Shown: piece after piece, positions 3,664-25,465 of the stretch | Numbering within the stretch: position 1 is the stretch's first letter | Layout: each line of letters starts with the position of its first letter | Source of the DNA: a virus | DNA length: 26,895 nt | Direction: 5' to 3' (one strand) | Virus record (IMG/VR): IMGVR_UViG_3300046004_001028 | Span: 1-26,895 of that record | Program-made: the position numbers and the translations under genes | Notes under the pieces: model-generated | Database searches by the model: none | Told to the model about the DNA's origin: nothing | The model's input: the letters and a program-made list of their open reading frames with translations, nothing else

Positions 3664-4262
3664 TGGCATACGCAACACGATATGGCAACTTTGTAGGGCA
3701 AATGGCAATACCTAACTTGTCTACGGATAGACCTGATGGGCAGTTGATAAATACTCTCATAGAACGTATTGAACCTGATTGGCTCGATACGTTCTTTGGA
3801 GTACCAACTGCAATATTAGTTCAAGATGAAATAGACAACCAAACGGGCAATACTCCGTATGCGGAAATTGTCAATGGTGCTACATTTGTTGACTTGCAAG
3901 GCGACACTCAAATATGGGTAGGACTAATTAATACTAAGAATTTCAACCCGATAGCTAACTACATTTATTGTGAATACCTTAAAGACAAGGAAATACCGCT
4001 AACTAATATTAGTGGTGTAAAGCAAGCAAATGAAAATGGCGTTAGAGGCGATATGAGTATGAAAATGTCACGAGTTTGGGCGGACATGGTTAAGATGAAT
4101 TTCACGTTACACGATTACTTAGTTTCAATAAAAGGAACTTATCCAACGTTTGATAGTGAATACATTGGATTCAAGTACGACCCATACCGAATACCATATT
4201 ATCGTGCCGACTTGTACCCTAATCAACTATTGTTTCAGAACTTAAATCAATTTGGTATCTAA
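3663..4262 (+). CDS. Putative head-tail connector (adaptor) protein
   Basis: 199 aa. The region NPIANYIYCEYLKDKE (about 99-114), flanked by Trp/Phe-rich helices and followed by NENGVRGDMSMKMSRVWADMV, resembles the all-helical connector proteins that many Bacteroidota phages encode just after the capsid and small-protein genes. N-terminal helices (LINTLIERIEPDWLDTFFG) fit the same fold. It overlaps both neighbours by one base (TAATG on each side). Position and helical pattern support an adaptor that binds the portal ring. The family assignment is from memory of the pattern, not a search. Confidence 0.55.
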   Translation: MAYATRYGNFVGQMAIPNLSTDRPDGQLINTLIERIEPDWLDTFFGVPTAILVQDEIDNQTGNTPYAEIVNGATFVDLQGDTQIWVGLINTKNFNPIANYIYCEYLKDKEIPLTNISGVKQANENGVRGDMSMKMSRVWADMVKMNFTLHDYLVSIKGTYPTFDSEYIGFKYDPYRIPYYRADLYPNQLLFQNLNQFGI

Positions 4263-7035: not shown

Positions 7036-7600
7036 ATTCATCAAGTGCTATTGCTACAAAGAATATAAAGAGTTAATTATACAAGGCAAACCAAGCGAAG
7101 AAATAATAAGCGATAATTGGCATAAGTTACTACAAGATTACATAGAATTGATAGGTGGTGATGAATACAAAGATAGCGTTTCAATGGTAGATAATATTAA
7201 CGATAGCACGTTAAGAGTTACACGAATAGAATCATTGCTTGAAGTTATCAACGTAGCACCTAGCGAGGGGTTATTTGAGGCTTTATATACGTTTGGGTAC
7301 GAATTACCTAAGTTGCCATACAACGAAGCGAATATCGAAAGATTATCTAAGGTAGTTGTAGCGAATATGAAAAGGGATGTGAGTAATATCATGTTATGGA
7401 AACAAATCATTGAAGAAAAGAATCCAACGAATGAGAATAAGATAACCGATGAAGTGTTCTACACAACATTGGTAGATTTGTCAGAATCGTTTGGAGTATT
7501 ACTAGATGAAAAAACGATTAGCGTATATACCTACGTTATGTACATTAAGAAGTACAGAAAGAAACTAGAACGAATGGCTAAACAACAACATAAAGTATGA
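6983..7600 (+). CDS. Putative tail assembly chaperone-position protein
   Basis: About 205 aa from ATG 6983 (MTESYSIYQDLKELPLYKFIKCYC...). An ATG 23 codons upstream is in frame, but that N-terminus is unlike the family. The pattern YQDLKELPLYKFI...ELIIQGKPSEEI, a long helical middle and SVYTYVMYIKKYRKKLE near the end matches a conserved helical protein that Bacteroidota siphophages place just before the tape measure. By position it is a candidate tail-assembly chaperone, which coats the tape measure during tail formation. Most chaperones come as a -1 frameshift pair; here the upstream ORF overlaps by 53 bases in the +1 frame. Confidence 0.6.
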   Translation: MTESYSIYQDLKELPLYKFIKCYCYKEYKELIIQGKPSEEIISDNWHKLLQDYIELIGGDEYKDSVSMVDNINDSTLRVTRIESLLEVINVAPSEGLFEALYTFGYELPKLPYNEANIERLSKVVVANMKRDVSNIMLWKQIIEEKNPTNENKITDEVFYTTLVDLSESFGVLLDEKTISVYTYVMYIKKYRKKLERMAKQQHKV

Positions 7601-22715: not shown

Positions 22716-23084
22716 ATGCAAAAAGAAATCGAAACACACATCAACGAATTAAAAGCAAGTGACTACGAAGTAATATTGAAGATTTGTGAAATGTATCAAG
22801 TAAAAGAAGAAACGTTTTTTTCAAGCACTAGAAAGATAAACGTAGTCAATGCAAGACACATGGCAGCGTATTACTTCTACAACGTGCGAAGATACACGAA
22901 GTCAAAAATAGCTGAAATGGTATCAGTACCAAAGAAAGACCACACAACTATTATAAGTTCAATTAGAAAGTTTGGGAACTTCTTAGATACAGAACCATAC
23001 ACAGCCGACTTATACGCTACGTTATTAATGCCACGAATCGAATTTACATCACTTAAATACAAACCTAATGCAACTAGAATTTAA
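22716..23084 (+). CDS. Stand-alone DnaA domain IV-like DNA-binding protein
   Basis: 122 aa. Residues 19-88 match the DnaA C-terminal DNA-binding domain: helix EVILKICEMYQV, then RKINVVNARHMAAYYFYNV, the HTH TKSKIAEMVSVPKKDHTTIISSIRKF with the DnaA signature DHTT (75-78). The AAA+ part of DnaA is absent. It starts 3 bases after the exonuclease. It may bind DnaA-box-like sites at a phage origin, or compete with host DnaA. The C-terminal tail is basic. Confidence 0.75.
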   Translation: MQKEIETHINELKASDYEVILKICEMYQVKEETFFSSTRKINVVNARHMAAYYFYNVRRYTKSKIAEMVSVPKKDHTTIISSIRKFGNFLDTEPYTADLYATLLMPRIEFTSLKYKPNATRI

Positions 23085-23747: not shown

Positions 23748-23833
23748 GTGGTGCGTTTGGCTTAAATGAGAAGTTGGTTATCGATTACCTGAAAAGGTTG
23801 CCACTAGCATAGGTTCAAATCCTATCCACCACC
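23748..23833 (+). ncRNA. tRNA-like element (perfect T arm and acceptor, irregular rest)
   Basis: The 3' part is tRNA-like: T arm ATAGG-TTCAAAT-CCTAT (23809-23825) followed by CCACCAC (23826-23832), which pairs with GTGGTG (23748-23753) in 6 of 7 positions. The middle has AAGTTGGTTA (D-loop-like, 23771-23780) and a CTGAAAA sequence, but no canonical 5-bp anticodon stem. A TGGC/GCCA helix (23758-23761 with 23800-23803) encloses the centre instead. About 85 nt. It is either a decayed long-variable-arm tRNA or a distinct tRNA-like RNA, and may also relate to an attachment site. Confidence 0.4.
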
Positions 23834-24222: not shown

Positions 24223-24248
24223 GCGGTGGTGTAATGCCACCGCTTTTT
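24223..24248 (+). terminator. Intrinsic terminator after the SSB gene
   Basis: Perfect 7-bp stem GCGGTGG/CCACCGC, loop TGTAATG, then five T. It ends the early operon from 20678. Confidence 0.8.
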
Positions 24249-24255
24249 AATCCAC

Positions 24256-24423
24256 ATGAAACAATGTAAACAATGCCTTACACCTAAGCCTAAACACGAC
24301 TTCTACAAGGCTAAACGTATGCTCGATGGACTAGAACACCGATGTATTGAGTGCAAACGTAAGTATATGAGGCGAAGGTATTGGGATGAGAAAGAATTAG
24401 GTAAAATGATTAGGATATTATGA
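24256..24423 (+). CDS. 55-residue two-knuckle zinc finger protein
   Basis: MKQCKQCLTPKPKHDFYKAKR... EHRCIECKRKYMRRRYW: C4-x2-C7 and C30-x2-C33 form a compact zinc site with a basic helix after it, as in the N-terminal zinc module of endonuclease VII/HNH-like phage proteins. The nuclease part is absent. It starts 8 bases after the terminator, so expression requires readthrough or a weak promoter. Possibly a DNA-binding adaptor. Confidence 0.6.
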   Translation: MKQCKQCLTPKPKHDFYKAKRMLDGLEHRCIECKRKYMRRRYWDEKELGKMIRIL

Positions 24424-24433
24424 AAGTATGTAT

Positions 24434-24441
24434 TATATTTG
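24434..24441 (+). promoter_or_regulatory. -7 box (TATATTTG) of the structured RNA leader
   Basis: Exact TAnnTTTG match; start expected at about 24445. No TTG at the ideal spacing. It lies 11 bases after the zinc-finger stop and gives a 120-nt RNA ending in a strong terminator. Confidence 0.6.
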
Positions 24442-24444
24442 CAT

Positions 24445-24566
24445 TCAGTTCTTTAATTAACCGATGCTGTGAGAGGCGTCTAAACAATAACACTTTTTAA
24501 TACCCTTTGCAGGGTTGCCACCTACATACGTAGGCTCTCACTGGTAGTCCTGCAAAGGGATTTTTT
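24445..24566 (+). ncRNA. Structured leader or small RNA with kissing-loop, terminator-ended
   Basis: From the -7 box to the T-tract. Helices: P1 GATGC/GCGTC (24463-24467 with 24476-24480) with loop TGTGAGAG; an 11-bp perfect stem CCCTTTGCAGG/CCTGCAAAGGG (24503-24513, 24549-24559) extended by TTGCCA/TGGTAG; inside it CCTAC-ATAC-GTAGG (24521-24534). The unpaired CTCTCAC (24535-24541) is perfectly complementary to GTGAGAG in the P1 loop (24469-24475). It ends in six T, 5 bases before the ATG of the sigma4/alphaCTD gene. It is either a free small RNA or an attenuator; I do not recognise a known class. Confidence 0.6.
24503..24566 (+). terminator. 11-bp intrinsic terminator before the sigma4/alphaCTD gene
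   Basis: Perfect 11-bp stem with a structured internal region, followed by A and six T. Unless read through or opened, it would stop transcription 5 bases before the ATG at 24572. Confidence 0.75.
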
Positions 24567-24571
24567 ATTTT

Positions 24572-25360
24572 ATGAAAGAAGAAATATCAAAAAAACTAAA
24601 TGTAGACGAAAGGTCAGTAAAGCTAATTTTGTTGGATGAAGAATTATGTAAAAGGATTTTAAAAGAGAACCCTATAAGAATAAACGAATTTATTTTAAAA
24701 TATGGATTAAAATCAGGATTTGTACATAATCTAGCTAAAAGACGTATTATAAGTAGTTTTAGGAATAGCCATAAACAAGGCTCTCCACAATTTATATTTG
24801 AAGAAGAAGCGTTAAGATATGCCAAAGTAGATTATAATTCAAATAGTATGTACCATTCAATTGAAATAATAACTTTTTTATTTGTCCATGCTTGTAAAGA
24901 CATTTTATCTGAAAGAGAAAAAGAATGTATTTTAACTTATTTTAATAGACCTAGCTCAAACTTAGATGAATGGCATTTAACTAGAGAAAGAGTAAGGCAA
25001 ATTAGAATCGGGGCAGTTAAAAAACTTGCAAGATATTCAGATAGAATAAAAAAAGTAGATGAAATACTTACTTTAGAATGTAGATTAAAAGAATTGAATG
25101 ATTGCAAAAAAAGCGTTGAAAGAAAATCAAATAAAAATTTAATCAACAGCATTCAAGATAAGAATAAGAAAATAGATATAAGGGATTTAGATTTAAGTGT
25201 AAGAGCTTTCAATTGTTTAAAGGCTGCTAATATTAATACGGTTGGTGAAATAATTGAAGTTGGGTATGAAAAATTAAAAAGAATTAGGAATATGGGCAAT
25301 AGGTCATTAAAGGAAATATCAGAAACTTTAGAAGAATTAGGATTTACCCCTTTATATTAA
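24572..25360 (+). CDS. Sigma-70 region 4-like HTH fused to an RNAP alpha C-terminal domain
   Basis: 262 aa. Residues about 111-155 (LSEREKECILTYF... LTRERVRQIRIGAVKKLAR) match sigma-70 region 4, with an intact recognition helix TRERVRQI; the first HTH helix is shorter than usual. Residues about 200-260 (IDIRDLDLSVRAFNCLKAANINTVGEIIEVGYEKLKRIRNMGNRSLKEISETLEELGF) are an RNAP alpha-CTD; the DNA-contact residues equivalent to E. coli R265, N268, C269, G296 and S299 are R211, N214, C215, G242 and S245, and K298 is replaced by R244. Residues 1-100 are helical and unassigned. It probably acts on host RNAP at promoters. Its A-rich DNA and Lys/Ile content differ from neighbours, suggesting separate origin. 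Confidence 0.8.
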   Translation: MKEEISKKLNVDERSVKLILLDEELCKRILKENPIRINEFILKYGLKSGFVHNLAKRRIISSFRNSHKQGSPQFIFEEEALRYAKVDYNSNSMYHSIEIITFLFVHACKDILSEREKECILTYFNRPSSNLDEWHLTRERVRQIRIGAVKKLARYSDRIKKVDEILTLECRLKELNDCKKSVERKSNKNLINSIQDKNKKIDIRDLDLSVRAFNCLKAANINTVGEIIEVGYEKLKRIRNMGNRSLKEISETLEELGFTPLY

Positions 25361-25369
25361 GAATTTAAT

Positions 25370-25377
25370 TAACTTTG
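25370..25377 (+). promoter_or_regulatory. -7 box (TAACTTTG) of the second structured RNA
   Basis: Exact TAnnTTTG match, 10 bases after the sigma4/alphaCTD stop. The predicted start (about 25381) coincides with the first bases of the terminator stem, so the RNA's 5' end is locked in the helix. Confidence 0.55.
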
Positions 25378-25378
25378 C

Positions 25379-25438
25379 AACAATAAAGGTTGTGTAGGCA
25401 TACACGTAAAAGTTAGCGTTCTTCCCTTTGTTGTTTTT
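25379..25438 (+). terminator. Intrinsic terminator before the primase/helicase gene
   Basis: The 11-bp outer stem of the RNA above and its five-T tract. The stem is A/U-rich on one side, so it is weaker than the one at 24503-24566. Confidence 0.55.
25380..25438 (+). ncRNA. Second terminator-ended structured RNA/leader
   Basis: About 59 nt. An 11-bp stem AACAATAAAGG/CCTTTGTTGTT (25379-25389, 25425-25435, one U-G) joins the start to the end, with a GTGTA-GGCA-TACAC hairpin inside (25392-25405) and five T at 25434-25438. TTAGCGTT in the loop (25413-25420) is perfectly complementary to AACGCTAA at 25443-25450, downstream of the T-tract; only a read-through RNA could form that pseudoknot or alternative hairpin. 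It ends 27 bases before the primase gene. Confidence 0.55.
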
Positions 25439-25465
25439 AATCAACGCTAAATAAAAACACATTAT

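Follow-up and report, generated by a model that had tools for sequence, protein, structure and literature searches.

The stretch of DNA analysed here (the window) is a virus record of 26,895 bases that carries tailed-phage genes of Bacteroidota type, among them those for a capsid protein, an exonuclease, a DUF3127 single-strand binding protein and a DNA primase. The leader RNA under study lies between a 55-aa open reading frame (ORF) on its 5′ side and a gene for a 262-aa protein on its 3′ side. The features of the locus are as follows.

24223..24248, + strand: simple, separate terminator that follows the DUF3127 gene and precedes the leader unit
24256..24423, + strand: 55-aa ORF with two CxxC motifs, immediately 5′ of the leader unit
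24434..24441, + strand: −7 box TATATTTG of Bacteroidota type, 21 nt before P1
24463..24480, + strand: hairpin P1 (GATGCT-GTGAGA-GGCGTC), close to where the transcript is predicted to start
24469..24475, + strand: GTGAGAG, the P1-loop half of the kissing contact, a position that covaries in relatives
24481..24502, + strand: single-stranded, A/T-rich linker of 22 nt
24503..24559, + strand: terminator hairpin with 18 outer pairs, five inner pairs and the tetraloop ATAC
24535..24541, + strand: CTCTCAC, the terminator half of the contact, an exact 7-nt bulge
24560..24571, + strand: T-tract ATTTTTTATTTT, reaching up to the start codon
24572..25360, + strand: downstream gene of 262 aa, with an RNA polymerase alpha C-terminal domain (alpha-CTD) at the C-terminus

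The alpha-CTD of the 262-aa protein was located at residues 195–258 (E 4e-13), and a stretch weakly resembling sigma region 4 at residues 134–168 (E 0.25); the protein may be a fusion serving to redirect the host RNA polymerase. The 55-aa ORF has a 59% identical homologue in L154, where it is likewise found upstream of an element; its relatives lie in L161, which is L154's own contig, and in four distant loci, none of which gave a leader element in the scan. Further upstream, in the replication region, positions 22716–23084 encode a protein with a DnaA C-terminal DNA-binding domain. A tRNA-like stretch (GTGGTG...CCACCAC, T-arm ATAGGTTCAAATCCTAT) lies between genes at 23748–23832 and was called by neither ARAGORN nor Rfam. 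At the matching place, L030 2023–2109 scored 32.2 bits, above the Rfam tRNA cut-off, and received no ARAGORN call.

The box TATATTTG fits TAnnTTTG, which we take to be the Bacteroidota −7 consensus. In most relatives TAnnTTTG ends 1–6 nt 5′ of P1, compared to 21 nt in the window. The P1 stem pairs GATGCT (24463–24468) with GGCGTC (24475–24480), and the last G of GTGAGAG may serve either as a closing base of P1 or as part of the contact. In the minimum free energy (MFE) structure, the terminator consists of 18 contiguous outer pairs, G-U included, between 24503–24520 and 24542–24559, and an inner helix of five pairs (24521–24525 with 24530–24534); the bulged CTCTCAC is the exact complement of GTGAGAG in the P1 loop. 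The initial annotation had reported this complementarity as perfect, and the analysis agreed, the second half being precisely the 7-nt bulge of the terminator hairpin. Its '11-bp stem plus 6-bp and 5-bp helices' proved to be the MFE structure counted otherwise, and the −7 box and T-tract that it had placed on either side of the RNA are both there (TATATTTG at 24434–24441 and a T run at 24561–24566). The T run is followed by ATTTT and then by the ATG at 24572, the T-tract ending 5 nt before the ATG; L066, L024 and L139 have the same tail. The fold of the window RNA gave a z of −5.32 and was better than all 200 of 200 dinucleotide shuffles. A strict terminator scan left the 24503–24559 hairpin unflagged, probably because the bulge and the length are outside the limits of the tool. 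The chance that a 7-nt bulge matches a loop of 7–8 nt is estimated to be of the order of 1e-4, and a chance match is untenable because relatives keep the contact.

Single-protein scans with the regulator (the 262-aa protein) and with the primase found no relatives, the exact DNA piece of the RNA gave no match as a query, and ten capsid-matched records contained no homologue of the regulator. Loci were collected with the capsid protein (10 loci) and with an exonuclease alignment (80 loci), and DNA patterns also worked. Pattern scans of host genome contigs gave 0 matches once and, once, 4 isolated matches without the element. In L024 and L030 the neighbouring primase is 76–77% identical to that of the window, and a different small gene occupies the place of the window's regulator gene, preceded by GTCGCAT in the hairpin loop and ATGCGAC in the terminator loop. 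L066, found via its T-tract, has the contact CTCGCAC with GTGCGAG. The isolated Flavobacterium phages lillamy and hattifnatt pair GTGAGACG with CGTCTCAC, mumin and snusmum pair GTGGAACG with CGTTCCAC, and morran pairs GTGAGAAG with CTTCTCAC, while the Cellulophaga phages phi19:1 and phi10:1 have GTACGAC with GTCGTAC. Relatives fetched without use of the loops have a common plan of hairpin, A-rich linker, terminator hairpin, T-tract and gene. A scan based on the kiss itself, which looked for a 7-mer in a hairpin loop with its complement inside a hairpin followed by a T-tract, gave 42 matches in the loci and the window versus 16–25 in five Markov resamplings; matches with an ATG close behind numbered 24, versus 3–6 in resampled sequence.

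Three collections were assembled by other means. Set 1 was obtained by scanning IMG/VR with a conserved sequence that lies 3′ of the RNA in three isolated phages, which gave 22 contigs, including those of the three phages themselves; one contig (L122) lacks upstream DNA. The results showed that P1, linker and terminator hairpin were present in 21 of the 21 contigs with enough upstream DNA (18 distinct). The covariance model R1 was built from 8 relatives with the stems of P1 and the terminator only, without the contact and without the window, and was run on 43 and on 42 sources, both times with the window. At 23.6 bits or more it recovered 21 distinct non-training elements, the window included (training sequences and their copies, L122 and the opposite-strand shadows L110, L112, L113 and L136 are left out of the count), and a loop contact of at least 6 nt was found in 21 of 21. 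Matches below 23.6 bits were mixed, with plain terminators (L106, L107 and others) as well as the true members L024, L131 and L132 at 14071. When R1 was run on the window alone, 24432–24572 (27.7 bits, E 0.0012) was the sole match at E values up to 10.

The third collection, the clade of the window, comprises 19 IMG/VR contigs picked by a second conserved RNA motif. This motif lies directly 5′ of the primase gene (window 25371–25440) and has the box TAACTTTG, followed by an outer stem AAAGG/CCTTT around TTG-NNTA-GGCA-TANN-CGTAAAA, in which the NN positions pair by eye (once as G-U) in six versions across the window and the 19 contigs. No Rfam match to the second motif was found, and L021 has a looser homologue. 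At the orthologous place of the leader, members of the clade have GTGAGAG (window), GTTGCAG (L154), TTAAGGG (L139 and L142) or GTCGCAT (L147 and L148, which are the same contigs as L030 and L024); the element scan found none in 14 of the 19 contigs.

The curated family has 35 members with 34 distinct contacts, each of 6–10 perfect pairs; five of these members (L064, L067, L111, L128c and L125c) come from the kiss-based scan only and are circular for the contact, and the tests by set 1, the 8-sequence alignment, R1 and the second-motif clade are not. Membership of L067 and of L111 (MW202710, no obvious Bacteroidota phage) is tentative. L027, which has an anti-repressor gene, was left out of the 35 for its doubtful P1, and near-duplicates (L026, L030, L110, L123, L124, L126, L136, L137 and others) were also omitted. 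L154 has a P1 of only three pairs, and the contact of L134 is either 6 nt long or interrupted. Across the 35 members, the own contact averaged 7.9 nt compared to 3.7 nt for swapped loops, which reached 6 nt in 70 of 1190 pairings, and none of 100,000 permutations reached the observed sum. The 14 non-redundant members of set 1 gave a similar result (7.6 nt own versus 4.1 nt swapped; 0 of 20,000 permutations). In a crude version of the comparison without structure, the own contacts averaged 8.4 and the swaps 6.1, with swap values up to 10. A chance origin of the contact was rejected by the resampling scan and the permutation tests.

In an alignment of 8 close Flavobacterium phage relatives, the contact of eight pairs was 100% paired, and changes on both sides were seen in five of the eight pairs; when the partners were slid along each other, 34–46% of cells were paired versus 97.3% unslid. 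P1 and the outer terminator stem were also 100% paired in this alignment, and the apical inner stem was weaker (81%). G-U pairs are used in both stems: columns 17–36 of P1 are U-A or U-G (U-G in 4 of 8 sequences), and columns 67–105 of the outer terminator stem are U-G in 7 of 8. The contact letters drift under strict complementarity, and therefore it is the fit that matters and not the letters. Fast divergence of the loops is not the rule. Between close pairs, changes in the loop versus the rest were 4/16 versus 6/97 and 2/16 versus 9/103 in two cases, and 0/16 versus 21/102 and 0/16 versus 17/97 in others; the idea was rejected, since two of six close pairs had no loop change at all. A conserved leader peptide was also considered and dropped, as AUG-AAG-UGA occurs in P1 of some members and is by eye missing in others.

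No family of Rfam 15 matched the RNA in the window, and in the relatives examined only tRNA genes were matched. The best weak match in the window stretch scored 19.1 bits against a cut-off of 45, and that in the lillamy stretch 19 against 46.5. The Rfam scan and the search for covariation in homologues had both been proposed by the initial annotation, which had named missing compensation in the contact as grounds for abandoning its claim of a structured RNA, not described before, whose loop contact is genuine. With compensatory changes in five of eight contact pairs and no such family in Rfam 15, that claim is strongly supported, and we are almost certain that a family of structured RNAs with a true loop contact is real.

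Several genomes carry more than one element. Hattifnatt has three, before genes for a helicase and an HNH nuclease and before a 70-aa gene that belongs to the primase operon. Contig L125 also has three, before genes for an HNH nuclease, a ParB-like protein and a 73-aa relative of the 70-aa gene product, as does L128, before two HNH nuclease genes and a 73-aa gene (in L125 and L128 the names HNH and ParB-like come from reading the translations, with no family search behind them). Contig L132 carries three elements as well. In each of these four, own pairing spans 6–9 nt and all six cross pairings span 3–6 nt. Elsewhere, a gene for a DUF6291-type protein follows the element in L037, L064, L066 and L085, one for a replication initiation protein in L002 and that for the alpha-CTD protein in the window. 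Replication-type genes follow in L037, L064, L066, L085 and L002, and none lies behind the element in the window, in L026 or in the HNH-linked copies of L125 and L128. As the downstream genes differ, the RNA is a module and not part of one gene. The initial annotation had set the RNA before the start codon of the regulator, and this stands for the window but not as a general tie, relatives having other genes there.

Copies directly 5′ of HNH nuclease genes were observed in L105 (13298–13395), L125 (7993–8098) and L128 (about 3690–3790 and 7120–7210); given this adjacency, element and nuclease may move together. In L116–L137 a small conserved hairpin, N-GG-TAATCTTWAAA-CC-N′, occurs right after the T-tract, 5′ of the 70-aa gene; its N and N′ form a pair, of three types overall, in all 16 distinct contexts, and the hairpin may serve as a binding site for a protein near the start codon.

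The sequence comparisons establish 24434–24571 as one member of a family of predicted promoter-proximal leader RNAs in Bacteroidota phages, with a plan that runs from a putative host-type promoter through P1, an A/T-rich linker, a terminator bearing the contact of 6–10 pairs and a T-tract to a protein gene. The ATG lies 11 nt from the start of the T-tract in the window and usually 8–20 nt (up to about 58 nt) in the family, and a start codon mostly 8–20 nt behind the T-tract start leaves no room for another promoter. An mRNA made from the element's own promoter must therefore carry the whole leader through the terminator, so that a promoter-proximal throttle is the simplest reading. We prefer the explanation that the element is an attenuator-type leader acting in cis, and give it an about even chance of being correct. 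Transcription would then start a few bases 5′ of P1, and the nascent P1 loop would capture the terminator loop upon its emergence. P1, contact and terminator would form a rod with the linker running alongside, most transcripts would stop at the T-tract to give a compact RNA of about 100–120 nt, and the downstream gene would be expressed only via read-through. The loop sequences would drift since only their mutual fit matters, and differing contacts among coexisting leaders would prevent cross-pairing between them. Candidates for raising read-through include a phage protein that reads the shape or the linker, the speed of RNA polymerase and phage dose.

The 5′ leader was also compared with the 5′ arm of the terminator, and no conserved, mutually exclusive antiterminator helix of the kind expected of a riboswitch or classical attenuator was found (mean z −0.07 in 25 elements; −1.97 in the window alone). 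A classical antiterminator switch was rejected, as no competing helix is conserved among the 25 elements. As no switch helix was found, any regulation of termination would fall to the kissing contact, to the linker or to a bound factor; the contact is compatible with a closed terminator, and its effect on termination is putative. Sensing of a ligand, a protein or the translation state, which the initial annotation had suggested, received no positive evidence from these data, and as the contact sequence is not conserved, no ligand or protein can read the contact as a fixed sequence. Upstream transcription could also feed the downstream gene; only 7 of the 33 elements had an identified terminator on their 5′ side, and two of the seven terminators were poor.

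The completeness of the transcription unit, which has a −7 box and a T-tract of its own, together with unrelated adjoining genes that let the RNA move independently of any one of them, would also suit an autonomous phage sRNA that has its own promoter and terminator and acts in trans, the close ATG reflecting a compact genome. However, both candidate seeds are locked in their mutual contact, 34 seed sequences in 35 members imply that no target is shared, the T-tract in most cases leads directly to the start codon with no promoter space, and one sRNA gene would not be expected in three differing copies per genome; we regard the sRNA explanation as unlikely, if worth keeping in view. Action in trans might also be directed at the element's own kind, much as in P4 immunity or in plasmids whose replication is under antisense control, the P1 loop of a terminated leader pairing with the terminator loop of a like nascent leader, or the reverse; this would make the feedback depend on dose and keep the specificity of co-infecting phages private. 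This would agree with the compensated differences between close phages of the same hosts (GTGAGACG, GTGGAACG, GTGAGAAG), with the mutual mismatch of contacts within a genome (3–6 nt cross versus 6–9 nt own) and with the fact that replication genes make up many of those downstream. Such mismatch of same-genome copies would fit insulation or private recognition alike, the linker permits pairing in cis, which should outcompete pairing in trans, and the loops do not generally diverge faster than the remainder. We consider it quite unlikely that each released leader recognises only its own kind, with several orthogonal circuits per genome that sense dose or exclude superinfection; in such self-addressed circuits, new specificities might arise through paired loop mutations.

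The retention of the geometry and of the linker (AAAAATATTA-like in many members) while the contact letters drift could mean that a phage or host protein, for example an antiterminator, an RNA-stabilising or an anti-defence factor, recognises the shape of the kiss together with the A-rich linker as a structural platform, with the terminator merely ending the RNA. No partner gene was seen travelling with the element, though, and the linker varies in length from 12 to 24 nt (17 elements measured), and we judge a platform improbable; it also overlaps with the attenuator, for which such a protein could be the missing regulator. As DNA, the two segments of 7–10 bp form a perfect inverted repeat near the promoter and might serve as the operator of a dimeric regulator, the RNA fold being incidental. 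Yet P1 and the terminator stems are kept paired via G-U, which is used by RNA only, the repeats are located in hairpin loops, and 34 differing sequences are too many for one protein. The operator reading is strongly disfavoured and has very little probability.

To our knowledge, little is known about gene control in phages of Bacteroidota. Six terms covering promoters, terminators and small RNAs are all absent from the text of PMC7077304, on Baltic Flavobacterium phages of the lillamy group, and the portion of PMC2864571 consulted, which reports 104 candidate RNAs and names Bacteroidetes motifs, holds nothing of this plan. Literature searches yielded nothing closer. By these searches and Rfam, the RNA family, which is comparatively well supported, is apparently undescribed. 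Isolated phages of Flavobacterium and Cellulophaga carry it, so that experimental tests are possible at once. A terminator built around a kissing contact, together with naturally occurring sets of orthogonal loop pairs, would offer a novel means of setting gene dose and a supply of insulated RNA regulators available for use.

The pistol ribozyme is like the element in having a P1 loop that reaches across an A-rich linker to pair with a strand inside a second hairpin. In the element, unlike the ribozyme, the second hairpin is a terminator, and the pistol ribozyme was absent among Rfam matches up to E 10. The P4 CI RNA and the HK022 put RNA are leaders that head early or replication operons; compared by description, they share with the element the character of a phage operon-head leader RNA acting on termination, and we know of no kissing terminator plan in either. 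In type III toxin-antitoxin systems, a leaky terminator stands between the RNA and the protein gene. The order of promoter, structured RNA and protein gene is shared with these systems and with AbiF/RCd22 loci, as far as the consulted part of PMC12373285 describes it. The element differs in having no toxin gene and no repeats, in being single at its locus and in the alpha-CTD gene downstream; the proteins downstream of its family are replication, nuclease and regulator proteins.

With the RNAI/RNAII pair of ColE1 the element has in common a kissing helix of 7 bp between hairpin loops, but in ColE1 the kiss joins two molecules and here both loops are in one RNA. The pT181-type attenuator likewise has, ahead of a replication gene, a leader with a promoter-proximal terminator governed by loop pairing; its switching depends on a countertranscript and a competing helix, whereas no competing helix was found in the element. 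In rep leaders of IncI-alpha type, the partner structure lies next to the start region of the replication gene and the loops define compatible groups. The pseudoknot of ColIb-P9 repZ activates translation, and an antisense RNA competes with it. As in the IncI-alpha, IncB and IncL-M leaders (ColIb-P9 repZ, in the part of PMC10724649 consulted), a 5′ hairpin loop of the element pairs at a distance, but its partner lies in a terminator hairpin, it has no known antisense gene and its downstream genes are varied. In its presumed action, the element resembles plasmid rep leaders with long-range loops, as that part of PMC10724649 presents them, and attenuators, and it is best filed under neither.
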